Positions 6,232-26,781 of a stretch of DNA of 39,655 nt are shown in pieces. The notes beneath the pieces were generated by a model. That model saw nothing but the letters and a program-made list of their open reading frames with translations, was not told the DNA's origin and ran no database searches. A program made the translations under genes and the position numbers. The DNA is from Prevotella sp. (GTDB taxonomy: Bacteria > Bacteroidota > Bacteroidia > Bacteroidales > Dysgonomonadaceae), in assembly GCA_031285905.1 (NCBI GenBank), contig JAITVH010000114.1, positions 1 to 39,655 on the forward strand, given 5' to 3'. Position 1 is the first letter of the stretch; the number at the start of each line of letters is the position of its first letter.

Positions 6232-6318
6232 GGAAGTGTGGGTGAGTGGCTGAAACCACCAGTTTGCTAAACTGACGTACGGGTAACTGTACCGGGGGTT
6301 CGAATCCCCCCGCTTCCG
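6232..6318 (+). tRNA. tRNA-Ser(GCT)
   Basis: An 87-nt class II tRNA. The acceptor arm GGAAGTG (6232-6238) pairs with CGCTTCC (6311-6317), and the discriminator is G6318. The anticodon loop TTGCTAA (6264-6270) gives anticodon GCT, reading serine AGC/AGU codons. The long variable arm and the GGTTCGAATCC T-arm are as expected for serine tRNAs. No CCA is encoded. Its 3' end is the apparent integration site of the following mobile element. Confidence 0.95.
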
Positions 6319-6320
6319 CT
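6307..6320 (+). mobile_element. Left attachment site (attL) in tRNA-Ser 3' end
   Basis: CCCCCGCTTCCGCT covers the end of the T-arm, the 3' acceptor strand, the discriminator and two further bases. The same 14 bp recurs exactly at 10958-10971. A tyrosine integrase gene follows immediately. This is the classic pattern of integration into a tRNA 3' end that leaves the tRNA intact. Confidence 0.8.
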
Positions 6321-6330
6321 TCAAGTTTTT

Positions 6331-6355
6331 TAAGTCGCTAATAAATAGCGGCTTA
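6331..6355 (+). terminator. Hairpin downstream of tRNA-Ser
   Basis: TAAGTCGCTA pairs with TAGCGGCTTA across a 5-nt loop with one G-T wobble, followed by AATTCGTTTT. It is positioned to end the tRNA transcript. It lies inside the element, so it may have come with the insertion. Confidence 0.6.
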
Positions 6356-6455
6356 AATTCGTTTTAAAGGATTCGGAAAACAAAAGTGTGACAGAAATGT
6401 GACACGTTTACATTTAATTTTTTTAGCCTGGATATCCAATTCAGCTAAAAAAAAA

Positions 6456-7658
6456 ATGGACTTAAATCAACTTCAAAAAAAGCTTCTTATAAAAGGGTTG
6501 GATAGTTTGCCATTGGTGAACTATGAGCCTGCAGTTTTAAAAGAATGGCCTACCGACTGGCATATAGAATACCGGGTTTTAAATCCGGATTCGGGAAAAC
6601 TGGAAAGAAGAAAATTCAGATTTGAGAAAATTCGTAAACGTTTAGGCAGTGATCCTAAAGCTCGCAAATATGCAAAGCTTTACTGTGATGCTATAAATGA
6701 AAAGCTAGATTCGGGTTGGAATCCTTATCAGCAAGGAAAAAACGCAAAGTCATTTCATAAGCTGCTCGATGCCTTAAAAGTTTACCTGAAGGAAAAGGAA
6801 CTCGATTTAAAGAATGGAGTGTATAGTCCGGAGTCTATGAGAACGTGCAAATCTCAAATAGAAATTTTTTCAAACTGGATCAAAACAAAGAATCTCACAA
6901 ATGTATACGTAGGGAGCTTCACCAAAGATATGATACAGGAATACCTTGATCATGTCTATATTGAAAAAGAATTATCACCTAGAACCTGGAATAACTATCT
7001 GAAATATATGCGCGCTGTGTGGAACTGGCTTATATCGAAAAACTATTGTTCTGAGAACATAGTTAGTAAGATTAAGACAAAGCCGGTGACCGAAAAAGAA
7101 AGGGTGATAATCCCGCCTGAATGGACAAGAAAAATAATGGAGTATTACAGGGAGCATAATCCTAAAATGGAGTTGATATGCGGACTTGTATATAATTCTT
7201 TTATGCGTCCATCGGAAATATGCAGAACGCAAATAAAGGATATCCGTATAATTGAAGGCGGTATTTTCCTTCCGGGAAATAAAACAAAGAATGGTCACGC
7301 CCGATGGTGTCTGCTCCCACCTCATTTAATTGAGATGCTTACAAAAATGAAGATAGAAACTTATCCACTGGATTACTATTTGATATCATCTTTTCTTGAG
7401 CCAGGAAACAATAAACTATGCACAAGGAAGATTGATAAATATTGGGATAAAATGCGTACCAAAATAGGCTTGCCTAAAAATATGAAGTTGTATTCGTACA
7501 GGGATACTGGTATAACTGATTTAAAGAAAGCGGGATATTCCAATTTATTTATCAGTTCCATCACAGGGCATCTTAATTCGGAAGAAATAGAAACTTACAC
7601 TCATGCTCCTGATCCGAAGGCTCTCAAATTCATTATGGAAGAATCCTATAAACTATGA
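6456..7658 (+). CDS. Tyrosine recombinase/integrase
   Basis: This 400-aa site-specific integrase belongs to the Bacteroidota phage/conjugative-transposon type. An N-terminal arm-binding region is followed by a SAM-like core-binding domain (about residues 90-190) and a C-terminal catalytic domain. Visible catalytic elements are the Arg in the FMRPSEICR block, YSYRDTGIT in place of the usual HxLRHT box, GHLNSEE, and the nucleophile Tyr in EIETYTHA. The first His of the H-x-x-R box is replaced by Tyr. The ATG at 6456 was chosen; a GTG at 6399 would add 19 residues of unlikely sequence. It lies directly after tRNA-Ser, whose 3' end is duplicated at 10958, and presumably integrated this element. 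Confidence 0.9.
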   Translation: MDLNQLQKKLLIKGLDSLPLVNYEPAVLKEWPTDWHIEYRVLNPDSGKLERRKFRFEKIRKRLGSDPKARKYAKLYCDAINEKLDSGWNPYQQGKNAKSFHKLLDALKVYLKEKELDLKNGVYSPESMRTCKSQIEIFSNWIKTKNLTNVYVGSFTKDMIQEYLDHVYIEKELSPRTWNNYLKYMRAVWNWLISKNYCSENIVSKIKTKPVTEKERVIIPPEWTRKIMEYYREHNPKMELICGLVYNSFMRPSEICRTQIKDIRIIEGGIFLPGNKTKNGHARWCLLPPHLIEMLTKMKIETYPLDYYLISSFLEPGNNKLCTRKIDKYWDKMRTKIGLPKNMKLYSYRDTGITDLKKAGYSNLFISSITGHLNSEEIETYTHAPDPKALKFIMEESYKL

Positions 7659-13901: not shown

Positions 13902-16214
13902 ATGAAAAAAATTGCGGCTTTATCGTTCCTGTTCTTTTTTATTCTCAATTCATATGGACAGGAAATAACTTCTATGGTTTCGGGTGGCACACGCCAATCG
14001 GATTATCTGATTACCCTGCCATTCGATACGACTCAAAATTTATTGATCGTAAATGTAGAAATATCCGGTAAAGATTACCGCTTTCTTTTCGATACAGGAG
14101 CATCCGTTTGCCTATCCCAAAGGCTTGTAGATGAAATAAAACCGAAGCTTGTAGGTAAAATGAATGTAACTGACAGTGAATCGGGAACAGACAGCCTGAA
14201 TGTATATATTTTGCCGGAGATCACACTTGATGGAGTTACTTTCAATGATATACCTGCGTTTCATCTAAGAGACTCGGATTTTATGGAGTGTCTCGAATTT
14301 GACGGAATAATAGGTAGTAACCTGTTGAAAGATTTAGCAGTTCGCTTCTCTTCCGCTAAGAGAGCTATAACAATTACCGACAATCCTGAAAAATTTAATC
14401 TCAGAGAAGATATTTCAACAGAGATGCAAATAATCCCGGAACAGAATTTCCCTGTCATCAAAACTCTTCTGTCAGATAATCTCAGAGGGAATATCGATCT
14501 TCTTTTCGATAGTGGAATGACAGGCTTCTATGATCTGGCCCTCAGGCATTTCCATCTATTTAAAGATAATAATATATTTACCATCAGAAATATAAGGCAA
14601 GGGATGGGGAGCCATAGTTTTACTTTCTTTGGGCGTGCACCCGATACACTTATGTACAGGTTGAGAATCCCTGATGTAACTATTGGTAATGTTGATTTTA
14701 AAAATTTATCGATCACTACCACAACTAACGATAATTCCCGGGTGGGGGTTTCCTTGCTCCATTATGGTGACGTTACTCTCGACTTTAAGAATAAGCGGTT
14801 TTATTATGAACCATATATTGATAAAGACCGTGATCTTTATGAAAGAGAGTTGCCCGTTAGTATAAGTACAGAGGATGGAAAATTTATCATAGGGGTTATC
14901 TGGGATAAAAAACTGGAAGATAAACTTAGTATCGGTGACCGGATAATATCCATAAACGATGTTAATCTGGAAGGATTTGAAAAATGCTATGCTTTCAAAG
15001 CCAGACTTGACTTCAGTAATAAGGATTCTTTTGTTTTCAAAATAGAAGACAAAGAAGGAAATATAAAAGATGTTGTTGTAGATCAGGATAAACAAATGAA
15101 TTATGTGGCTGAAGACCAGTCCGATTACCTTATCAGTTTGCCGTACGATCTGGTAGGCGGGCGCTTAATTGTAACAGTAGATATTGGAGGAAAAGAATAC
15201 CGCTTTGTAGTGGATACAGGCTCAGGTACTCATCTTTCACAAAAGGTTATAGAGGAGATCAAACCAGATGTCTTAGAGACGATGACAATAACTGATAATG
15301 AAAGCAGGACTAATACTATATATACTTATTCCTTGCAGGAAATCACCCTCGATGGAGTCACTTTCAATAATTTGGTGGCACATAAACTCGATGATTCACA
15401 ATTGACTGAATGTCTGGGGATAGACGGAGTAATAGGCAGTGACCTGCTGCAAAACTCAGTGGTTCGTTTTTCATCTTCTGACAAAACAATCAGGATTGCA
15501 AACACGCCCGGCAAATTTGACTTGAATAAAGAAAATTCAACAGAGATGATTTTAGTTTCCGGAAATCGTATACCTATGCTCAAATCTTTTCTGACAGACA
15601 AACAGAACTTCTCTATAGATGTCCTTTTCAGTAGTGCGATGCCCGGTTTGTATGAGATGACGCTAAACCAATTTCTCGACATAAGAAAGCATGATATATT
15701 CTCTGATTCAATTATAACACAGGGAATGGGTGGCTTGATCGGCACTCCTACTGGCCAGGTGCGCGATACTGATCTTTATAGGCTGAGAATTCCTGATTTA
15801 AGCATTGCCAATGCGCATTTCAAAAACGTTACGATAAATACTGTACGTAAAAATGATTCACAAATAGGATCATATTTATTCAATTACGGCGATGTCACTA
15901 TCGATTATAAGAACAGGCAATTTTATTTTGAACCATATCCTAAAAAAAATCCAGATCATTACGAAAAAGAAATGTCTGTAGATGTGATACTGTGGGAAAA
16001 TAAATTCATAATAGGAGCCGTTTGGAATAAGGATTTACAAGATGAAATAACTCCGGGCGACCAGGTATTATCCATAGATGGCATAAGCCTGGAAGGGAAA
16101 CCGGGATGCAAAGAAATGCTTAAAGATTATGACTTTAAGGGAAAAGACTCTTTCATATTCAGAATAAGAGATAAAGATGGCAATGTAAAAGAAGTGACGA
16201 TAGAAAAGGAATAA
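13902..16214 (+). CDS. Secreted tandem aspartyl protease (two retropepsin-PDZ modules)
   Basis: This 770-aa protein has an N-terminal signal peptide (cleavage near YGQ20). It is a tandem duplication of a roughly 380-residue unit, each unit being two retropepsin/pepsin-like lobes followed by a PDZ-like domain. In unit 1, FLFDTGAS (Asp64) and LLFDSGMT (Asp203) supply the two active-site Asp residues, and residues of about 310-395 form the PDZ (GDRIISINDVNLEG). In unit 2, FVVDTGSG (Asp438) is kept, but the second motif has become FSSAM, so Asp577 is Ser; the PDZ follows (GDQVLSIDGISLEG). Unit 2 may therefore be inactive or need a partner lobe. A third, separate copy follows as the next gene. It is likely periplasmic or secreted. 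Substrate unknown; the nearby Cys-rich secreted proteins are candidates. Confidence 0.85.
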   Translation: MKKIAALSFLFFFILNSYGQEITSMVSGGTRQSDYLITLPFDTTQNLLIVNVEISGKDYRFLFDTGASVCLSQRLVDEIKPKLVGKMNVTDSESGTDSLNVYILPEITLDGVTFNDIPAFHLRDSDFMECLEFDGIIGSNLLKDLAVRFSSAKRAITITDNPEKFNLREDISTEMQIIPEQNFPVIKTLLSDNLRGNIDLLFDSGMTGFYDLALRHFHLFKDNNIFTIRNIRQGMGSHSFTFFGRAPDTLMYRLRIPDVTIGNVDFKNLSITTTTNDNSRVGVSLLHYGDVTLDFKNKRFYYEPYIDKDRDLYERELPVSISTEDGKFIIGVIWDKKLEDKLSIGDRIISINDVNLEGFEKCYAFKARLDFSNKDSFVFKIEDKEGNIKDVVVDQDKQMNYVAEDQSDYLISLPYDLVGGRLIVTVDIGGKEYRFVVDTGSGTHLSQKVIEEIKPDVLETMTITDNESRTNTIYTYSLQEITLDGVTFNNLVAHKLDDSQLTECLGIDGVIGSDLLQNSVVRFSSSDKTIRIANTPGKFDLNKENSTEMILVSGNRIPMLKSFLTDKQNFSIDVLFSSAMPGLYEMTLNQFLDIRKHDIFSDSIITQGMGGLIGTPTGQVRDTDLYRLRIPDLSIANAHFKNVTINTVRKNDSQIGSYLFNYGDVTIDYKNRQFYFEPYPKKNPDHYEKEMSVDVILWENKFIIGAVWNKDLQDEITPGDQVLSIDGISLEGKPGCKEMLKDYDFKGKDSFIFRIRDKDGNVKEVTIEKE

Positions 16215-16298
16215 AACTGTCGTCTGCTTCCTGAGTCCGTACACACATATTCTGAAAAACAGATCATTACTTATTGCATATACTGAATATCGGTTATT

Positions 16299-17489
16299 AT
16301 GAAATAACTTGCACTATTATTATTGCTTTTTACTTTATTTTTTGATTTATATGCTCAAAAATTGCAAACCCTCAATTTAGGAGGAACTAAAGCAACTGAT
16401 TATACCATAAAGCTTTCCTGCGATACTGTAGTTCCCTTATTAATAGTGAATGCGCAGATAGGAGGAAAGACATACCGTTTCTTATTCGATACGGGTGCAG
16501 ATACAGTTATTACAGATAGATTGGTTGAAGAGACAAAGCCCCGGTTATTAGATAAAGTGCCTGTAGCTGATGCGGATGGCAACGTTGACAGCCTGAATAT
16601 ATATTCTTTATCCGAAATTACATTAGATGGTATTGAATTCAATGATATTCCGGCTATACATCTCAAAGAGTCGGTAATAATGAAATGTTTGGATCTGGAT
16701 GGTATTATCGACTGTAACCTGTTGCGTAATTCTGTAGTTCATTTTTCTTCACCCGATAAAGTTATTACTATAGCAGATAGTCCCGAAAAAATAAAGGTTG
16801 AATTAAGTAATCCGATAGAGATGTTGGAAATTAGTCCTCAGAAATTGCCTATATTCAAAATATCCTTTGTCGATAATAATCAAAAAGATGACGATTTAGT
16901 GCTTTATTTTGATAGTGGGATGAACGAATTGCTTCACCTTTCATTACGTTCGTTTTACTATTTAAGAGACGAGGGTTTCTTTGTTGATAATATAAAGGAA
17001 GGGTATGGGAGCGAAACCACCACATTGTTTGGCGGGTCGCAAGATACAGTACAATACAAAGTTCAAATTCCGGAGTTGGAAATAGGAAATTCATCTATCA
17101 AAGATGTTTCAATAAATACGACAACTTTTCCCAATAGTAGAATCGGTGCAACTCTGTTAGAATATGGTTTTGTCACAATAGATTTCAAGAATGGTTTATT
17201 TTATTTCGATCCGTTTAGCGATCAGGAGCAGAAGCCTGAAAAAAAGAAACTAACTGCATCATTAGCTTCGTCAGGCGATAAATACAGGATAGGGATTATA
17301 TGGGATAAGGAATTACGTACTAAAATAAGTCCCGGCAATCACGTTTTAGCTGTAGACGGTAACAGCCTGGAAGGATTAACCGAATGCGAAGTCTTTATGG
17401 GTAAAGGTCTTGAAGAAAAAGATTCATATATCTTCACAGTCAAAGATAAGAACGGCAATATAAAAGATATTCTGGTAAAAAGAGAATAG
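16299..17489 (+). pseudogene. Retropepsin-PDZ aspartyl protease with stop at codon 3
   Basis: A third copy of the aspartyl protease-PDZ unit, with both active-site motifs intact (FLFDTGAD and LYFDSGMN) and a C-terminal PDZ (GNHVLAVDGNSLEG). The natural start would be ATG at 16299, giving Met-Lys-stop-Leu-Ala-Leu: the third codon is TAA where AAA (Lys) would complete a normal signal peptide. The frame reopens at a TTG at 16323 and then runs 388 codons to 17489, but a product from there lacks the positively charged start of the signal peptide. The coding body shows no other damage, so the lesion is recent, a sequencing error, or bypassed. It ends 5 bp from the convergent LtaS-like gene. Confidence 0.75.
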
Positions 17490-19349: not shown

Positions 19350-19500
19350 AGATATATGGAAAGAATTATAAATTATAACATAGAAAACATAACCTACTTT
19401 TTAAATTTTCATTCTATCTGAAACGATTAAACAGAGATTATATAGGCTCTGAAGCATCATGGTTTATTAAGTATCATTAACTTTTTTAAAAATTTTCCCA

Positions 19501-19543
19501 CCCAAAATTAACAATCATATTTTTTCGAATTTATCTATAGATG
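19501..19543 (+). promoter_or_regulatory. Shared promoter block A, upstream of first GS/Cys precursor-like gene
   Basis: CCAAAATTAACAATCATA followed by TTTTTTCGAATTTATCTATA closely matches blocks at 22577-22615 (VKOR gene) and 24333-24371 (second precursor-like gene). The constant part TTTTTTCnAATTTATCTATA is too well conserved for a neutral spacer, and no other TAnnTTTG box is present. It is probably a common promoter or operator. TCTATAGAT is itself a short palindrome. Confidence 0.65.
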
Positions 19544-19556
19544 TAATTATAGCGAA

Positions 19557-19617
19557 AGCTTTTGTTAAGTTGTAGGGCAAGAGTGAGTAACTGCGCAACA
19601 AACAATGAATCTACAAC
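19557..19617 (+). promoter_or_regulatory. Conserved 5' leader with GTTGTAG/CTACAAC inverted repeat, copy 1
   Basis: AGCTTTTGTTAAGTTGTAGG and the following GCAAGAG are nearly identical to 24391-24418. GTTGTAG (19569-19575) can pair with CTACAAC (19611-19617) around about 35 nt, and the same arms are conserved at the second locus while the loop differs. It lies just upstream of the ATG and could be an RNA structure controlling translation or a protein-binding site. Confidence 0.55.
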
Positions 19618-19637
19618 ATTATCTAAATTTATAAAAA

Positions 19638-20282
19638 ATGAACGTATTAAAAAAAATCAATTTAGAGGATGCAGAAATATTAACAAGCATTCAACTAATG
19701 ACAACAGGATCCGGTAGTGGTTCAGGACAGGGAGACGGAACTAGTGCAGAGAAATGTATGCCGCTATCAGTTTATGATGATATGGTTGATCGGGGTATAT
19801 CTATCAAAAATGTATGGGTATGTGGCCTTGGCTATATTACATCAGATCCCGCAATAATTTGGGGTTCTGGAAGCGGTAGTGGAAATGGCGGTAACCCTAG
19901 AGGAGGCTGGGATTACGGTTCGGGAACTGGCAGTGGAACCGGTTCAGGAACTGAATATGATCCTAAGGATGGAGGTAACTATAACGGAAAAGCGATGGGA
20001 TATATGCCATCCGGCCGTACTAGACAGGAAGCGATCGAAAAATGTAGTGGTAAACTTCATGACGAAAAATGTTATTTCCCAGAACGAAGTGGATTATGTA
20101 GAAGAACTGCTAAAGGGGAACCACTGCAATGTGAATCACCCGATTCAAAACAAGCTTGTTCTGATGCAGTACCTACTGTTAAATGCTGGGCTATAAATGA
20201 TAGAGGCGTTGCGACAAACGGAAACTGTCGGTCATTAGGAGGAAAAAGTCCGAATGGTCTTGATTGCCTAATGCAATCTTAG
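19638..20282 (+). CDS. Secreted Gly-Ser-repeat, Cys-rich protein with RiPP-like leader (paralogue 1)
   Basis: A 214-aa protein of no family I can name. It opens with a leader, MNVLKKINLEDAEILTSIQ then LMTTG, with no classical signal peptide; it resembles double-Gly-type leaders cut by C39 peptidases (hydrophobic residues spaced before AG/TG-S). Two Gly-Ser/Gly-Thr tracts (about residues 24-32 and 77-106) flank a conserved block ending NVWVC. The C-terminal third is Cys-rich; the whole chain has 10 Cys, an even number suggesting disulfides. The paralogue at 24484 shares the leader, the tracts and the NVWVC block but diverges in the C-terminal domain. It is preceded by shared promoter and leader elements and followed by a strong terminator. 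Confidence 0.7.
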   Translation: MNVLKKINLEDAEILTSIQLMTTGSGSGSGQGDGTSAEKCMPLSVYDDMVDRGISIKNVWVCGLGYITSDPAIIWGSGSGSGNGGNPRGGWDYGSGTGSGTGSGTEYDPKDGGNYNGKAMGYMPSGRTRQEAIEKCSGKLHDEKCYFPERSGLCRRTAKGEPLQCESPDSKQACSDAVPTVKCWAINDRGVATNGNCRSLGGKSPNGLDCLMQS

Positions 20283-20306
20283 ATATGATTAGAGTTTAAA
20301 TTCTTT

Positions 20307-20339
20307 ATCCCTAATGCAAATTTATTTTGCATTAGGGAT
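20307..20339 (+). terminator. Terminator of first precursor-like gene
   Basis: Perfect 14-bp arms ATCCCTAATGCAAA / TTTGCATTAGGGAT (20307-20320, 20326-20339) around a 5-nt loop are followed by TATTTTCATCTTATTTT. It separates the abundant-looking precursor unit from the thioredoxin gene. Confidence 0.85.
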
Positions 20340-20409
20340 TATTTTCATCTTATTTTATTAATTTTGGATCAATGATACTTTATCTTTAAATATCTAATTG
20401 AAAAACTCT

Positions 20410-21981
20410 ATGGATAATAATATATCTTTTTTTAATATTTTATTTACTTTTTGTCTGCTTCTAATGTCATGCACCAAACAAAATGATAGCGGTATATTCA
20501 ATCCTAGAATTGAAACCGGAGTAGCAAAAGTATCGGGAAATGTTATTAATTTATGCGAAAATAATGAATTTAAGGTATTCAATCTCAAATTCGAATCTGT
20601 AGATGTAATTTTAAATAAAATAGACGAGTTTAAGGTCGCTATTAATGATGATGGCAGTTTTGAGTGTGAAATTCCTGTTACAATTTCACCTCAAATTGTA
20701 TCAGTTTTAGTTAATAATGGAATAACATTCTTTACAATTAGTATAACGCCCGAACAGGAAACAAAATTGGAAATAATATGTCCGGAGGAAGCTCCAATAG
20801 AAGTCAAAATAATAAGTGGTTCAGAATCTTTTTTTGAATCTCCAGAAGAAGCAAAACAAGTATCCGAACTATTTTCAAAAATGGCAATGCTTGGTTCGGA
20901 TAAGAGCCGTACAACTAAAGACACCATAAACCTGTTTGTCCAAAACCCCAATGAATATATTCCTTATTTTATTAGAAATAACCTGAATTACAGGCTTGAG
21001 ATTATGAAAGAAGATACTATATTGAGTGATAAGACGAAAGCATACTATTTAGATTTGTTCAGTCTTTTCATGTTTAAATTAACATTCTTCGAACTCAGTT
21101 TTGACGAAGGAATAATCAAGATATATGAAGATATAAAACCAGAAGGAGATACTACAACTTTAAAAATAACGAATCAACCCGATAAGACATATTATAGTTT
21201 TCTGAAAGATCTTAATCTGAACAATTCCCAGTATCTATATAATATGCATTATTCATCACTTTGTCAGGAAATCCTTACTAATAAAATACTGAATCTTTCT
21301 CCTATTAACGAAACCCCAATAGATGAATGGCTGAAAGGAGTAAAATCTATAATGGCTGATTTAGTAGGCTTTGACAAAGGGCAGTTTTATGATATACTAA
21401 TAGCCAACGCTTATTCAAAACAATTTTCAGATGAACTAAAACCATTATCGGAGAAGCAAATTCAAAATATAAAGACTTATTACAAAGGAGGAGATATAGA
21501 GAAAATAATCTTACATGAGAATGAAAAGATAGTGAAGATAGCAAACGATAAAGGAGAAGCTATTGTTAACGAAACGCCGCAGGTAGCTAATGAAAAGCTA
21601 CTGGATGCTATTCTTTCCAATTATAAAGGTAAGGCTGTAGTTGTGGATCTTTGGGCGACATGGTGTGCGCCCTGCCTGTCGGCAATGAAGAAAATACAAC
21701 CCCTTAAAGCAGAATCGAAAGACAAGGATGTCGTATTTGTTTATATAACCAATACGTCTTCACCTAAAGAGTTATGGGAAGCAAAAATAAAAGCCATTGA
21801 CGGAGAACATTATTACCTGAATGAGGAGCAATGGACGCACATAATGAATAGTTTGAAAATTACCGCTATCCCTGCCTATCTTTTCTACAATAAAACAGGA
21901 AAGCTTTCCTTTGATCCTGTAATAGGCTATCCGGGAGAAGATTGGATGCGAAGCCTAATAAAAAATGCCCTGTCTGAATAG
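20410..21981 (+). CDS. TlpA/ResA-like thioredoxin lipoprotein
   Basis: This 523-aa protein has a signal peptide and lipobox (LLLMSC). Residues of about 30-135 look like the beta-rich N-terminal domain common in Bacteroidota thiol-disulfide lipoproteins, and about 140-380 is helical and of unknown role. The C-terminal thioredoxin domain starts near residue 385: VVVDLWATWCAPCLSAMKK carries the active CAPC pair (Cys419, Cys422), and the cis-Pro loop is ITAIPAYLFY. It probably reduces or isomerises disulfides in the periplasm. Placed just after a Cys-rich secreted protein and near a VKOR oxidase, it may handle disulfides of these products. ATG at 20410 was chosen over a TTG four codons earlier. 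Confidence 0.85.
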   Translation: MDNNISFFNILFTFCLLLMSCTKQNDSGIFNPRIETGVAKVSGNVINLCENNEFKVFNLKFESVDVILNKIDEFKVAINDDGSFECEIPVTISPQIVSVLVNNGITFFTISITPEQETKLEIICPEEAPIEVKIISGSESFFESPEEAKQVSELFSKMAMLGSDKSRTTKDTINLFVQNPNEYIPYFIRNNLNYRLEIMKEDTILSDKTKAYYLDLFSLFMFKLTFFELSFDEGIIKIYEDIKPEGDTTTLKITNQPDKTYYSFLKDLNLNNSQYLYNMHYSSLCQEILTNKILNLSPINETPIDEWLKGVKSIMADLVGFDKGQFYDILIANAYSKQFSDELKPLSEKQIQNIKTYYKGGDIEKIILHENEKIVKIANDKGEAIVNETPQVANEKLLDAILSNYKGKAVVVDLWATWCAPCLSAMKKIQPLKAESKDKDVVFVYITNTSSPKELWEAKIKAIDGEHYYLNEEQWTHIMNSLKITAIPAYLFYNKTGKLSFDPVIGYPGEDWMRSLIKNALSE

Positions 21982-22019
21982 ATTTTAATAATATATCGCC
22001 GTAATCATGACTTATGTAA

Positions 22020-22550
22020 TTAGTCTAAATTTTGGGTATATGTAGAACATTTTCTTCTAAATTTCTCCCAGTCAAAATCTATTGGCTGGGGATATTTTTT
22101 ATCTAATTTAATATTTACATTTAAGATTATTTCTTCAAATTATAACCCATATTTTCCCTTGCAATTCTTCATTCCTTTTGCCACAATTCCTTAATTTTTT
22201 CTATCTCATAGCTATCAAATAAATACTCTACTAAATAGCTAGCCTGAGTATATTCAATATTTGTAAGAAGGAATTGTATTATATCATCCATATCCAATAG
22301 CTTATTATATTGCAAAAGAAAAACGGATATTTCTTCTGATGCATAGTCATTATAATCTTCTGTTTCGGGATTATCAAAAATAGCTAATCCTTCATCCAAT
22401 CATAATAAATCTACTATAGGCGATTCCCACTTAATAGCTAAAATAATATGCATAAGTTCATATTCAAGGAGAGAATATTGATTATTGATAATAGAAATAA
22501 TTCATCTGTACTATTCCTTGTTTTTACCAGGGTAATACAATTCCCATATT
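22020..22550 (-). pseudogene. Decayed gluzincin peptidase (relic paralogue of the 25175-26781 gene)
   Basis: Conceptual translation across breaks aligns with the active module of the gene at 25175-26781. LEYELMH stands where that protein has LKHELMH, so the first zinc-binding His of HExxH is Tyr. A TGA replaces the Trp before LDEGLAIF. A long open stretch (22169-22399) matches the helical part ending KELWQK. A frameshift near 22172 follows, then the tail with TAA in place of Lys (GL-stop-FEE), ending KKYPQPIDFDWEKFRRKC and a stop at 22020-22022. A further frameshift lies near 22495-22510. At least four independent lesions make this a real pseudogene rather than a sequencing artefact. Confidence 0.8.
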
Positions 22551-22551
22551 C

Positions 22552-22615
22552 TTAACATTTATTATGTATTAATCCTATCCAAAACCACAATTATATTTTT
22601 TCGAATTTATCTATA
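22552..22615 (+). promoter_or_regulatory. Shared promoter block B, upstream of the VKOR gene
   Basis: This 64-bp block aligns without gaps to 24308-24371, differing at about eight positions, and its right half aligns to 19501-19539. It contains TTAACATTTATTAT, CCAAAACC and TTTTTTCGAATTTATCTATA. It begins directly after the peptidase relic and ends 58 bp before the VKOR ATG. Confidence 0.65.
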
Positions 22616-22672
22616 TGCAGTAAACCAAAGTAAAATGCATAATAGAATATAAATTAAAAAAAAGTATTTATC

Positions 22673-24248
22673 ATGAGACCAAAAAGTAAGAACATCTTTG
22701 AGCTTATCCTTGAGCAATGGAACGTAAAGTTTACAGAAACGCATGTAAACAAACTTTATAACGAAAATCCGCATAGAAATACTCTGTTCGGATTATCGAA
22801 TATGCTAACTGATTATAATATTAACAATGTTGCGATTAAGACGAAGAACGTAGAAGAGTTAAGAATGATAAAGAAGCCTTTCTTTGTAAATATAGAAGGC
22901 GAAATCTTTGTTGTAAAAGAACTGAAAAATGACAAAGTAGCCTGTATATCCGACAAAGGAAGTATAAGTATTCCACTCAATGACTTCCTCAATATATGGG
23001 ATGGTGTCGTCTTGTTGCCTGATGTAAATAATAGTTCTATTGAGCCTCAATATAAAGAACACAGGACGCAAGAGTTATTTAACATTTTTCGTAAAAATCT
23101 ATCCTTAGTAGTTGTTGGCATCATCTTTTTTATAGGCATTATTAGCAATGGAATCTACAATCATTTGGAATTAGTTCTATTATCGATTGTTAATCTGATT
23201 GGGATCTATATTGGTTATCTGCTGATACAGAAGCAAATGTATATAAAGAATGACCATGCGGATAAAATATGCTCGATGCTTAAAAAAGGAAATTGCAACA
23301 GCGTTTTAAATTCATCTGCTGCAAAACTTATGGGAGTAATTGGGTGGAGTGAAGTAGGGTTAAGCTATTTCATTTCAAATATTCTGATACTTATGTTTTT
23401 ACCTCAGCTTATATCTTACATGGTGCTACTCAATGTATGTGCTTTACCGTATAGTTTGTGGAGTGTATGGTATCAAAAAATCAAAGTCAAGGAATGGTGT
23501 CCTCTTTGCCTAATTGTTCAGGTATTGTTATGGATTACTTTTGTTGTATGCCTTATTTCTGGCTACATAGTTTTTCCTCAATTTACTATTCTGGATATAT
23601 TGCTGACAGGGTGTATGTACGCCATACCATTCTTAGTGATCAGTTTTATAGTTCCGAAATTAAATGATAAAAGACATCTTGAATACATCAAAGAAGAACT
23701 TAACGATTTACGGTTAAAACCTGAAGTTTTTTCCTCACTTTTGAAACAACAACCATATTATAGGGTAGATCATTCTACATCCCGGATTATTTGGGGTAAC
23801 AAAAATGCCGACTTGCTTATATCGATCATTACCAATCCGCATTGTGCTCCTTGTGCGATGATGCATAAGCGCATTGAAAAATTGCTGCAAAAAGCAGGGG
23901 ATAGCGTTTGCATACAGTATATTTTCAGCTCTTTCAATGAAAAACTGGAATCGAGTAGCCGATTTTTTAGCTGCGATCTATTTTTCAGAGAAGTATAACC
24001 TTCAAGAAAAAGAAGAAATATATAATAAATGGTTTGAAGAAGGGAAATTCAGAAAAGAGGAATTCTTTGAAGAGTATCAATCCAACATAGATGCAGATAG
24101 CATAAAGCTGGAAATAGATAATCACAAACAATGGAAAAATCAAACAGATATTGCTGGAACTCCAACTATTCTTTTTAACGGATATGAGCTTCCCTACCAG
24201 TATAGCATAGAAGATATAATCTACTTTATGGATTTGAAAACAAGCTGA
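22673..24248 (+). pseudogene. C39-like / VKOR / thioredoxin fusion, frameshifted near the 3' end
   Basis: This membrane thiol oxidase gene is broken by one frameshift. Residues 1-120 resemble the inactive C39-like peptidase domain often fused to Bacteroidota VKORs. Four to five membrane segments follow, with VKOR cysteines Cys200 and Cys208 and the CPLC pair (Cys276, Cys279). The thioredoxin-like domain has NPHCAPC (Cys391, Cys394). The first frame ends at 23998 with a scrambled tail. The correct C-terminus (from about LAAIYFSEKYNLQEKEE through GTPTILFNGYELP, cis-Pro) continues in another frame to 24248. Dropping one T from the run of six at 23963-23968 restores one 524-codon frame. The family makes disulfides in exported proteins; the flanking Cys-rich proteins are obvious candidates. 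Confidence 0.85.
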
Positions 24249-24307
24249 AGTTATCCAGTATGTAGATTTTTTTTGAATTCAGGGAAGAGGAATTGATTTA
24301 TATATAT

Positions 24308-24371
24308 TTAACATTTATTATATATCAATTCTGTCCAAAACCTCAATTTTATTTTTTCCAATTTATCTATA
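24308..24371 (+). promoter_or_regulatory. Shared promoter block C, upstream of second GS/Cys precursor-like gene
   Basis: Gap-free counterpart of block B (22552-22615), with the same TTTTTTCnAATTTATCTATA end. It is followed by AGATAG and then the conserved leader. Together with blocks A and B it suggests one regulon of three genes. Confidence 0.65.
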
Positions 24372-24390
24372 GATAGAAATAAGAAAAAAT

Positions 24391-24447
24391 AGCTTTTGTT
24401 AAAGTTGTAGGGCAAAAGCAGAAGCACGTGCAAACCTAAGCTACAAC
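24391..24447 (+). promoter_or_regulatory. Conserved 5' leader with GTTGTAG/CTACAAC inverted repeat, copy 2
   Basis: AGCTTTTGTTAAAGTTGTAG and the following GGCAAAAG match 19557-19583. Arms GTTGTAG (24404-24410) and CTACAAC (24441-24447) are retained with a shorter, diverged loop. The VKOR gene lacks this element, so it is specific to the two precursor-like genes. Confidence 0.55.
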
Positions 24448-24483
24448 ATTAATATTTTAAACATTAAAAAAACAAAAACTAAA

Positions 24484-25125
24484 ATGAATGTACTAAAAAA
24501 AATGAATTTAAAGGATGCAGGAGTATTAACAAGCATCCAATTAATGGCAGCAGGATCTGGTAGTGGCTCCAATGGCGGCTCTAATAATGGTTCTGGTTCC
24601 GGTAATGAATCTGGTTCTGGTAATGAATCTGGCTCAGGAAATGGTTCAGGAACAAATAGTGGTTCCGGCTCTGGCTGGAAAGGAGGTGATGGTACTAGCG
24701 AATCTAATTGTATGGATCGTGATGTATACAACCAATTAATCAGCCAAGGCGCAACAGTTACCAATGTATGGGTCTGTGACGAAGGTCATATTGGAGGCTC
24801 AGGTAGCGGAACAGGTTCAGGAACTGGTAGTGGAAGCTGGATCTGCGATGATGAGTGTACAAGTGACTCCAATTGTGCAGATAAGCTCGGGTTAAGTGGA
24901 GGAGAGAGATCAAAAGCCGCATGTATTCTAAATGGCTGTTTAGCCGGTTTTGGCGGTAACTATAGAAGGTGTATTAAAATGGACGATGCTGAATTTCCAT
25001 GTAAAGGACTATATCTGCATGATAAATGCACAATGGCAAATGGAAAACCGGGATATTGTTCACAATTTAATGTTCCTTTCAACTCTTGGAGAGCAAATCG
25101 ATGTACTGAATTTAAGATGAGTTAA
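24484..25125 (+). CDS. Secreted Gly-Ser-repeat, Cys-rich protein with RiPP-like leader (paralogue 2)
   Basis: This 213-aa paralogue of the protein at 19638 has leader MNVLKKMNLKDAGVLTSIQ followed by LMAAG, then a long GSGSGN/ES tract (about residues 24-66), the conserved block with VYNQLISQGATVTNVWVC, a second GSGTGSG tract, and a Cys-rich C-terminal domain. It has 12 Cys in total (again even). The C-terminal domain is not alignable with paralogue 1 beyond Cys spacing, suggesting a variable functional part on a constant leader and linker. No signal peptide is seen, so export probably relies on the leader. It lies directly after the VKOR gene and shares its promoter type; transcription probably ends at the palindrome at 25216. 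Confidence 0.7.
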   Translation: MNVLKKMNLKDAGVLTSIQLMAAGSGSGSNGGSNNGSGSGNESGSGNESGSGNGSGTNSGSGSGWKGGDGTSESNCMDRDVYNQLISQGATVTNVWVCDEGHIGGSGSGTGSGTGSGSWICDDECTSDSNCADKLGLSGGERSKAACILNGCLAGFGGNYRRCIKMDDAEFPCKGLYLHDKCTMANGKPGYCSQFNVPFNSWRANRCTEFKMS

Positions 25126-25174
25126 ATAAGAAACTAATAGTAGGTCTCATCCTACTACTAAATACTATTTGATT

Positions 25175-26092
25175 CTAATCAATATTTTCTATACAATCTT
25201 TATTAAAAGTTTTCCACTCGAGCCCAATTGGGCTCGAGTATTTTTTATTTAATTCTGAATTGATCTCAGATATCATCTCTTCATATTTTAATCCATATAC
25301 TTTTTCAAAATTATCCATTCCGCTTTGCCAAAATAGTTTTAGCTTTTCTACCCCAAATCTCTCAATTAAATATTTCACTATATAACCAGCTTGACTATAA
25401 GATGTTCTAGTCCAAGGGAATGCTATAAGCTCACTAATGTCCAACAGTCTATTATTCTGTAAAAGATAAGCATACCGTTCTTCTAAAGTATAACCCGTAC
25501 ATTCTTCTGTATCAGGGGCAGCAAAAACAGCCAAGCCTTCTGTTAACCATAACAAATTAGATCCGTATTCTCCCCATTTCTCAACAGACACGGCATGCAT
25601 CAGCTCATGTTTAAGGACGTTAACTGTATCATTAAATACAGAAGTAATTGAGTGTATCCCTTCTTGGGAATTAAAATGAGCCATACCTCCTAGTCTATTC
25701 CCTGTAAATTTTTTTACTTCCTCTCTGTTCTGAACCAGAATCAACTGTATAGAAGACTCAAGTTCGGATTCATTTATTAATTCCAGATTTTGGGCTATGT
25801 AATCTTTTGTTTTCTCCACAATTTCATTTCGTACGTCTACATCAATAAAAGAGAATATAATAAATTCAATATTACCCACTTTTTTAGTCATTACTTCACC
25901 AGCGTTGTTTTTATCATATACTACCAGCCAATCATCCGGTTGCGGATCAATACAATCCTTAGTAAATACTTCCCAATCTATAGTGATAGGTTCACTATAT
26001 TTCCTTTCAAGTTGTTTGTTTATTTTTTTAGCCAGATTTTCAAAACTTATTCCATATATCTTCTCAAAATTAATCATTACATTTTGCCACAA
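25175..26092 (-). CDS. C-terminal half of a two-module gluzincin peptidase (active HELMH module)
   Basis: This 305-codon frame opens at TTG but stays open upstream to about 26246, where it continues the gene at 26212-26781 after a one-base slip. It contains the linker after module 1 (residues 1-55) and module 2: LKHELMHAVSVEKW is the HExxH zinc site and, about 20 residues later, WLTEGLAVF gives the Glu of the gluzincin type (peptidase MA-like). The repeated tail of each module reads NFEKxYG then a Lys-rich helix and xxWxxFxKDC. Alone this piece has no signal peptide, so it would stay inside the cell. The gene is convergent to the second precursor-like gene, and its last codons contain the precursor's terminator. 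Confidence 0.75.
   Translation of the reverse strand: MWQNVMINFEKIYGISFENLAKKINKQLERKYSEPITIDWEVFTKDCIDPQPDDWLVVYDKNNAGEVMTKKVGNIEFIIFSFIDVDVRNEIVEKTKDYIAQNLELINESELESSIQLILVQNREEVKKFTGNRLGGMAHFNSQEGIHSITSVFNDTVNVLKHELMHAVSVEKWGEYGSNLLWLTEGLAVFAAPDTEECTGYTLEERYAYLLQNNRLLDISELIAFPWTRTSYSQAGYIVKYLIERFGVEKLKLFWQSGMDNFEKVYGLKYEEMISEINSELNKKYSSPIGLEWKTFNKDCIENID
25216..25250 (+). terminator. Perfect 24-bp palindrome plus T-run, inside the opposing peptidase gene
   Basis: ACTCGAGCCCAA is followed at once by its exact reverse complement (25216-25239), and then ATTTTTTATTT. On the plus strand this is a strong intrinsic terminator for the precursor-like gene ending at 25125. The same bases encode Tyr-Ser-Ser-Pro-Ile-Gly-Leu-Glu of the peptidase tail. 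The equivalent position of the decayed paralogue (about 22066-22098) has a weaker CCCAG/CTGGG hairpin, also followed by a T-run. Confidence 0.7.
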
Positions 26093-26211
26093 TTCTTTTA
26101 ACTTTCCTACTCCATAATTTTCTATGAGATAGTCAACTACATACGCTGACTGTAAACGAGCAGCTTTATAGTCAGGAGTTATTTCATTCTTGGGAAATTG
26201 CTGTAAATCGG

Positions 26212-26781
26212 TCAGTTTTTCATTTTGTAGCAGGTAGGTATATTTTCCTCTAAGTTCAGTCCATCACAACTGTCTGTTTCAGGACTAACGTAAGTTGCCA
26301 ATCCCTCTTTTAACCATAGGAGTTGATTGTCTTTCTGTTTTCCCCATTTAGAAGAAACGATGATTTTTATTAGCTCTCTATTCAAAGGACAATATTCCGG
26401 GTCGTATATAACCATAACCTGGTTAAACTTAACCGTACTGTCTTTAAGAATATTGAAGCTGGAAACTCGTTTTCCTGTATGCCTGTATAATTCTCCCCGG
26501 CTATGCATAAAGGCGATAGCCAATGGCTCATTAAAGTCAGTTTCATTTAATAAATCAAGGTTATTCCTTATGTATTGTTTCGTTTTTGCAACTAATCCTT
26601 CCCGCTGACTGATACCTATCGTTGTACTTATTACTGAATCTATACTGAAAAAGGTATTGCCATCCATTCTTATAAAATAAGATCCTTGTTGTTGCCAATC
26701 TTGGGAGAAAAGATTTAAGACGAAAAATAGGAATACCAATAAAACAGTCACTGTTTTTCTCACTATACTAGAATGATGCAT
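26212..26781 (-). CDS. N-terminal half of the gluzincin peptidase (signal peptide and zinc-site-less module 1)
   Basis: This 189-codon frame begins with a signal peptide (VTVLLVFLFFVLNLFSQ). It then encodes a gluzincin-like module in which the zinc motif has become NRELIKI instead of HELMH; the downstream WLKEGLATY is kept, so module 1 is probably a non-catalytic copy. After LEEN the frame is lost. Adding one A to the run of four (plus-strand TTTT at 26243-26246) restores LEEKYTYLLQNEKL and a continuous protein of about 535 residues through the frame ending at 25175. The lesion is a single homopolymer slip, so sequencing error or phase variation are real possibilities. Confidence 0.75.
   Translation of the reverse strand: MHHSSIVRKTVTVLLVFLFFVLNLFSQDWQQQGSYFIRMDGNTFFSIDSVISTTIGISQREGLVAKTKQYIRNNLDLLNETDFNEPLAIAFMHSRGELYRHTGKRVSSFNILKDSTVKFNQVMVIYDPEYCPLNRELIKIIVSSKWGKQKDNQLLWLKEGLATYVSPETDSCDGLNLEENIPTCYKMKN

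Follow-up and report, generated by a model that had tools for sequence, protein, structure and literature searches.

A predicted pseudoknot RNA upstream of cysteine-rich precursor genes that neighbour a C39-like/VKOR/thioredoxin fusion in Bacteroidales

How the products of cysteine-rich, leader-bearing genes are recognised and oxidised, and what their messages have in common, is the question raised by a stretch of 39,655 nucleotides (nt) from Prevotella sp. (Bacteroidales, Dysgonomonadaceae; assembly GCA_031285905.1, contig JAITVH010000114.1), referred to here as the window, which is contig C140 of a 3.65-Mb genome of 173 contigs that is 88% complete. Two genes of the window, A (19638-20282) and B (24484-25125), were described in an initial annotation as secreted precursors served by dedicated disulfide and protease machinery; both are intact open reading frames (ORFs) with 10 and 12 Cys, as that annotation had them. 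Upstream of both lies a common structured element that the annotation did not contain, in a block shared by A, B and a further gene of this genome, C, before their start codons. The reading that we favour, and hold to be probable though far from secured, is that A and B encode exported, disulfide-bonded proteins that would be oxidised by a fusion protein encoded between them, and whose messages would be marked by this element, a cis-acting pseudoknot. The RNA and its covariation, its tight placement, the association of the precursor genes with the fusion and the domain make-up of the fusion are established at the level of sequence.

The RNA element upstream of the precursor genes

The element is predicted to be an H-type pseudoknot in which a first helix, h1 (commonly nnAUUGC with GCAAUnn), is crossed by a second, h2 (commonly GUUGYAG with CURCAAC), an inner hairpin or palindrome lying between the 3′ arms of h1 and h2. 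Its central motif was picked in 38 of 89 precursor upstream regions, a set that was reduced to 34 by taking out near copies and short rows, to 29 by taking out five spurious rows, and to 26 by taking out three that were unaligned. Across the 26 sequences, standard pairs fill 87.6% of the pair cells against 77.0% in shuffles, the covariation score is 0.390 against 0.218, and changes on both sides are found in 18 of 22 pairs, a count that the relatedness of the sequences can inflate; none of five measures was reached in any of 500 shuffles. Helix h2 is paired in 94.7% of cells and h1 in 82.8%, with both-side changes in seven of eight pairs each, while slid-partner controls, which keep the relatedness, are 33-59% paired. 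Covariation above controls in both helices thus identifies the element, on comparative grounds, as a conserved structured RNA. The alignment was chosen by the motif and eight misfitting rows were dropped, a selection that favours the structure and has to be counted against it. This bias is answered by matches outside the alignment, because the covariance model used to find them (R1) holds nested helices only and leaves out h1: in 14 such matches (one a near copy of training rows, two at E > 0.4), h1 shows full 6/6 pairing in 10, and the mean of 5.43 pairs, against 4.52 with permuted arms, was equalled in 0 of 2000 permutations. A permissive pseudoknot finder is less discriminating, its score of 30 being reached by 42% of 88 upstream regions and by 4.5% of shuffles, and its best match is often a chance one.

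The placement of the element is narrow. Its distance to the start codon has a median of 22 nt and is 19-24 nt in 21 of 27 cases (27 of 36 rows counted). R1 scores the element of A at 60 bits (E 8.7e-11; window, filters off) and that of B at 48.1 bits (E 3.5e-8), both having been used to build the model. In 81 loci (1.27 Mb), all 31 matches at E < 0.05 lie on the strand of the fusion and before a leader start; most of these are in or near the training set, and one of the 31 genes is frame-broken. A frame-broken precursor gene with the element is found in Dysgonomonas sp. 25 (L121:14739-15100). Within the 18 family genomes that encode the fusion, 17 matches reach E ≤ 0.01; they are spread over six genomes, and all 17 precede leader-type genes, one of them frame-broken. 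Among 101 genomes of the family, a match at E ≤ 0.1 is present in seven, that is in 6 of 18 with the fusion versus 1 of 83 without it (Fisher p 9e-5), the weakest being that of G091, which lacks the fusion. A scan of the order, with only 12 candidates scored per genome, returned matches at E ≤ 0.01 in 4 of 393 genomes.

The model also leads to genes that protein comparison does not reach. In this genome, R1 revealed the leader-like genes F, G and H, which had been missed by protein searches with A and its alignment. In G433, a genome of another family, two matches precede Cys-rich, Gly-Ser-linker proteins of 196 and 198 amino acids (aa) without a leader, at a locus that also holds DUF6734 and GT32 genes, the fusion and a third such protein. 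Because the RNA persists there while the leader is gone, one may speculate that it shares or takes over the leader's marking role.

Rfam searches gave chance-level scores only in the stretches scanned, the sole overlap being snoZ40 at 12.9 bits against a threshold of 50 (E 7.9). The overall fold resembles that of the preQ1-II and SAM-II riboswitches, the preQ1-II riboswitch also having an inner hairpin. A likeness extends to STAXI (PMC2864571). The present element differs from all three in preceding Cys-rich precursor genes, in its palindromic loop and in its chance-level Rfam scores. Another conserved-looking pseudoknot was seen about 56 nt before the start of Bacteroides precursors of type MKKILNVSEMKQVRGG (L150, L155, L160, L163). 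A pseudoknot perceived by eye before gene D was dropped, as R1 does not support it (4.1 bits).

An often self-complementary inner loop

Among the inner segments that measure 18 nt or more, 22 of 31 contain a palindrome that is 6 nt or longer and includes two G/C, where shuffles lead one to expect 10.2 and reach at most 20 in 1000 sets, related inner-loop sequences not being independent. The core of the palindrome varies (GATC, AGCT, GGCC, ACGT, GCGC, TGCA, GTAC), and the seven elements of this genome fall into four classes: GCGC in A and C, ACGT in B and G, TGCA in F and H, and GGCC in E. For B, E, F, G and H, predicted pairing with self or class is worth -16.7 to -19.3 kcal/mol versus -5.3 to -10.2 with the others, and their self-pairing beats nearly all shuffles; self-pairing of A and C is no better than shuffles (53 and 62 of 200 as good, respectively). 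These calculations suggest that the self-complementary loop could support homotypic pairing of messages. Self-complementary loops are likewise a feature of kissing-loop RNAs such as the guanidine-II riboswitch (PMC9094411) and the retroviral dimer initiation site (PMC9010304), from which the present loop differs in that copies within one genome have unlike loop sequences and yet keep self-complementarity. A bolder proposal is that the loop acts as an address or copy-sensing element that pairs only with like messages, so that messages would associate and their translation or stabilisation would depend on concentration near the secretion and oxidation machinery; we regard this as speculative and rather doubtful.

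A palindrome present in most copies is also what would be expected of an operator bound by a dimer, and the element might then be a DNA site, for regulation or recombination, rather than an RNA. We consider this very improbable, since it leaves unexplained two crossing helices with G-U pairs on the sense strand (in 21 of 26 sequences at columns 25-72 and 10 of 26 at columns 14-26), the score of the A site in sense (60 bits) against antisense (13.5 bits), and a fixed position before the start codon that is kept inside operons between fusion and precursor. Moreover, the palindrome differs between copies of one genome, unlike the operator of a single protein.

The fusion, the precursors and their neighbours

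The features of the locus are as follows.

19553-19618, + strand: RNA element of A, a predicted H-type pseudoknot with inner palindrome TGCGCA, 20 nt before the start codon
19638-20282, + strand: precursor A (214 aa, 10 Cys), with leader, Gly-Ser linkers, NVWVC block and Cys-rich C-terminal part
20398-21981, + strand: TlpA-type thioredoxin-fold lipoprotein (Thioredoxin_8 E 8e-9, Redoxin E 2e-8), with CAPC, a signal region and lipobox-like MSC
22047-22501, - strand: gluzincin gene remnant with a frame break near 22.175 kb, found by tblastn with the gluzincins of L076
22673-24248, + strand: C39-like/VKOR/thioredoxin fusion (PF03412, PF07884, PF13462; tblastn), in two frames with a break near 23.94 kb
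24387-24448, + strand: RNA element of B, with inner palindrome GCACGTGC, 36 nt before the start codon
24484-25125, + strand: precursor B (213 aa, 12 Cys), with leader, long Gly-Ser linker, NVWVC block and Cys-rich domain
25175-26781, - strand: tandem-domain gluzincin-like protein with a Sec signal, convergent with B, with HELMH in the second domain and a break near 26.245 kb

Pfam matches bear out that the TlpA-type lipoprotein and the fusion sit between A and B. The fusion and gluzincins reported as interleaved with the precursors are indeed there, but both genes are frame-broken in the window. The genome has an intact fusion of 513 aa on contig C53 (L005:13083-14624, - strand) and a third on contig C120, beside a GG-type precursor. 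The VKOR loop cysteine pair, the VKOR CxxC and the thioredoxin CxxC are all present; the redox cysteines (CPLC and CAPC, plus a third pair) are invariant in the fusion alignment, and those of the VKOR and thioredoxin parts are so in an alignment of eight fusions, in which the window copy reaches as far as its frame break, after the thioredoxin CxxC. In these respects the fusion corresponds to VKOR-thioredoxin enzymes (PF07884), which are disulfide-forming; it differs from them by an N-terminal C39-like domain without catalytic residues. That domain aligns with C39 exporter domains with an hhalign probability of 96.9, the alignment beginning after the catalytic Cys and including neither His nor Asp. 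It should accordingly be no protease, and a C39 protease action of the fusion is not supported. A C39 fold without catalytic residues before membrane helices is also found in HlyB-type exporters, where the domain is part of an ABC transporter rather than fused to VKOR and thioredoxin. Hydropathy indicates about five membrane segments after the C39-like part which, together with the VKOR topology that we take to apply, would place the C39-like part in the cytoplasm and the thioredoxin in the periplasm. We read the C39-like part as a putative leader-binding domain.

The fusion is encoded in 18 of the 101 family genomes. From a scan of named genomes, 80 loci out of 90 were retained, and neighbours were counted in 56 distinct loci of the full-length type, with flanks to 10 kb and many contigs ending early. 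The proposed tie between leader-bearing precursors and the VKOR/thioredoxin fusion holds well in this set: precursors occur in 48 of the 56 loci (a count that omits the precursor of L132) versus 3 of 22 loci of a more distant type, and in 27 of 55 fusions a precursor starts within 400 nt downstream on the same strand. With a hidden Markov model (HMM) whose seeds included A, B and E, 87 precursors were found, of which 46 have exactly 6 Cys and 80 have GG within residues 12-40 (a loose pattern). A and B belong with these leader-bearing, commonly 6-Cys peptides found beside the fusion. The other neighbours in the 56 loci are a C39 exporter (24), an HlyD-type partner (21), a LanC-like gene (16), a TlpA relative (15), GT32-like (9) and GT2 (8) genes, a gluzincin (1) and an aspartyl protease (0). 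A LanC-like gene was observed at L124:7297-7998 (PF05147), and a similar-looking ORF near position 4394 of contig C25 of the present genome.

These numbers bear on a conventional interpretation in which A and B are enlarged relatives of TIGR04149-type precursors within an ordinary ribosomally synthesised and post-translationally modified peptide (RiPP) or bacteriocin system, the C39 exporter being missing from an incomplete genome and the RNA being a routine stabiliser of the 5′ untranslated region. All six short relatives searched in NCBIfam match TIGR04149, four of them above cut-off; an exporter and an HlyD-type partner occur in 24/56 and 21/56 loci, and the genome is 88% complete. The leaders of A and B are similar to the TIGR04149 type in their N-terminal half, but neither protein matches the model, and they differ further by their 213-214 aa, their Gly-Ser linkers and leader ends that read LMTTGSGS in A and LMAAGSGS in B instead of the GG cleavage motif. 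Genome G025, 99% complete and with the same precursor type, has no C39 exporter, and at the threshold used the RNA is restricted to these genes, unlike a general stabiliser. We therefore treat this interpretation as a credible but less probable one. Published GG-Bacteroidales precursors of the TIGR04149 type are described with radical-SAM neighbours (PMC4573289); none was noted near the present loci, where no search was aimed at radical SAM. The short relatives are already known, and we regard the RNA as the new part of the system.

Comparison of A with B supports the common leader, Gly-Ser linkers and NVWVC block that had been described: identity is 73% over residues 1-33 of A and 47% over residues 23-90, which include the block, and in the same search the C-terminal domains find no match to each other. 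Neither protein has a Pfam or NCBIfam match above chance, in keeping with the initial annotation, which recognised no named family for them. As a family marker the NVWVC block was abandoned: outside this genome, the 101 genomes yield just two matches, one in G025 that covers the leader only and one in G083 that is weak and has an internal stop. The Cys-rich domain of B (24829-25122) shows 53% identity over 99 columns to a precursor of Dysgonomonas sp. Marseille-P4361 (L076/L133). There the linker before the domain is shorter, the fusion lies upstream and a gluzincin gene, intact in this case, converges on the precursor gene as it does in the window. The domain is present in 4 of 393 genomes of the order, including this one, three of the matches being weak.

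Eight leader-like genes (A-H) with differing C-terminal parts lie at five places in this genome. The C-terminal part is Cys-rich in A, B and D, C39/papain-like in C (L005:7901-8665, with an in-frame TAG at codon 60 and a weak C39 match in the later part) and carries a JAB-like motif in G, a protein of 424 aa that has several Cys pairs as well as Gly-Ser linkers; F has 264 aa and a Cys-Gly-Ser linker, H only 40 aa, and D lies beside the intact fusion on contig C53. The proposed pattern of constant leader and linker with variable domains is borne out for the C-terminal parts but not for common descent of the leaders: an HMM built from 77 GG-type relatives alone recognises A (E 0.001), C weakly and no other of A-H, so that shared descent of all eight leaders is not established. 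Homologues without VKOR/thioredoxin neighbours, which the initial annotation had named as refuting its proposal, do occur. The stretches read around F, G and H show neither a fusion nor a TlpA-type gene, and E has a TlpA-type neighbour but no fusion; for these four the fusion would have to act in trans.

The diversity of C-terminal parts is what a polymorphic toxin-immunity set would show, in which a constant leader and linker present exchangeable toxic domains that are neutralised by a Sec-exported neighbour. Such neighbours exist: downstream of G come four paralogues with signal peptides, each about 190-200 aa long (L224:7575-10451; no Pfam match for the three searched), a relative with 24% identity to the first paralogue lies beside F (L222:6985-7524, - strand), and a signal-peptide protein or a lipoprotein is encoded next to each of C, E, A and B. 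A role in immunity or maturation is conceivable for the proteins after G, the relative near F, the TlpA-type lipoproteins after A and near E and the gluzincin after B. Signal-peptide neighbours are, however, commonplace in Bacteroidota, the domain matches are weak and below cut-off (Prok-JAB E 0.15, Peptidase_C39 E 0.038), and the short 6-Cys relatives resemble peptides rather than toxin domains, so that a toxin-immunity set is an arguable explanation that we do not prefer.

Glycosyltransferase genes point in a further direction. GT2, GT32-like (PF04488) and DUF6734 genes stand beside D, beside H, in L133 and in G433, DUF6734 and two GT32-like genes lying directly upstream of H on the same strand (L223:6249-9097). 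They could modify the Ser-rich linkers of disulfide-bonded proteins, as in glycocins, which combine disulfides with such neighbours; compared with glycocins (PMC12457901), the present products are much larger and their putative glycosylation is suggested by gene neighbourhood. With GT32-like genes in only 9/56 loci, GT2 in 8/56 and no gene of either kind observed next to A or B in the window, a glycocin-like system appears unlikely.

The proteases do not generalise as partners. What had been listed as two gluzincins at 25175-26781 is gluzincin-like but is one tandem-domain gene split near 26.245 kb, its two frames being 59% and 49% identical to a 530-aa protein of L076 that is likewise convergent with its precursor. 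Assignment as a peptidase draws on HELMH and a Peptidase_MA_2 match below cut-off (25.5 against 32.4 bits), a cut-off that the L076 relative passes. Beyond this genus, a dedicated role is not supported, a gluzincin being present in only 1 of 56 fusion loci (L133). The convergence in Marseille-P4361, found in no other of the 56 loci, suggests that precursor and gluzincin are a pair worth testing. The tandem aspartyl proteases are present as described (13902-17489, PF13650), and their supposed partnership is not supported, with none in 56 relative loci.

The search for a C39 ABC exporter, as the initial annotation had proposed, found none in this genome at its 88% completeness, PF03412 giving three fusion-type matches only. 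The idea that GG and the exporter are lost together was considered and rejected: G074, G043 and contig C120 have GG leaders and no exporter found, and G014 has a non-GG precursor plus exporters. The sequence TTTATCTATA upstream of A, B and the fusion was likewise rejected as a private promoter, as it has 99 sites in the genome, against one for the reversed pattern, and precedes many unrelated genes; it is taken as a common promoter-like motif. The pattern TTTTTCNAATTTATCTATA, with at most two mismatches, likewise gives 99 sites genome-wide against one when reversed and is probably such a motif. Elsewhere in the window, a tRNA gene directly precedes a tyrosine integrase (6232-7655), possibly a tRNA-targeted integrated element.

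A proposed route from marked message to oxidised protein

Altogether, these findings lead to a model in which A and B belong to a group of eight or more proteins, leader-like, Gly-Ser-linked and mostly Cys-containing, that are encoded at five places in one Dysgonomonas genome and would be exported as competition factors, bacteriocin- or effector-like. The C39-like domain of the fusion, cytoplasmic and catalytically dead, would hold the precursors by their leader, and the periplasmic VKOR/thioredoxin half would oxidise the precursor cysteines. The pseudoknot, which ends about 20-24 nt before the start codon, would be a cis-acting expression element that controls or protects the messages of the family; lying between fusion and precursor in operons, it would allow separate output of both genes. 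What we infer is that the RNA regulates or stabilises the messages and pairs homotypically, that the leader is bound, and that the products are exported, oxidised and antibacterial. Within the published papers covered (preprints excluded), none was recognised that describes the fusion with these precursors or the RNA.

Several observations weigh against this model. The frame breaks of the fusion and gluzincin mean that the window locus itself may be in decay or contain sequence errors. For A and B no exporter was found, nor does the nearly complete G025 show a C39 exporter. Single-sequence folding of the RNA is unremarkable (z 0.53, -0.69, 0.03). The central motif is found in only 38/89 precursor upstream regions, so that the RNA is not needed for every precursor, and D, with its leader-like start beside an intact fusion, has no R1 match (best 4.1 bits). 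In G435 and G358, two of the four order-scan matches outside this genome, no precursor lies behind the element, and the leaderless products of G433 argue against leader binding as a general step.

For the biology of these bacteria, the RNA offers a way to hidden precursor genes that does not depend on protein sequence: it has led to three such genes in this genome and, in another family, to a set without leaders, all of them missed by the protein searches. The fusion of a dead C39-like domain with VKOR and thioredoxin is a candidate for leader-guided disulfide formation. Should the element prove regulatory, a dominant phylum of the gut would have a cis-acting RNA that serves genes for secreted peptides; should the palindromic loops pair, bacterial mRNAs would offer a natural example of homotypic dimerisation.

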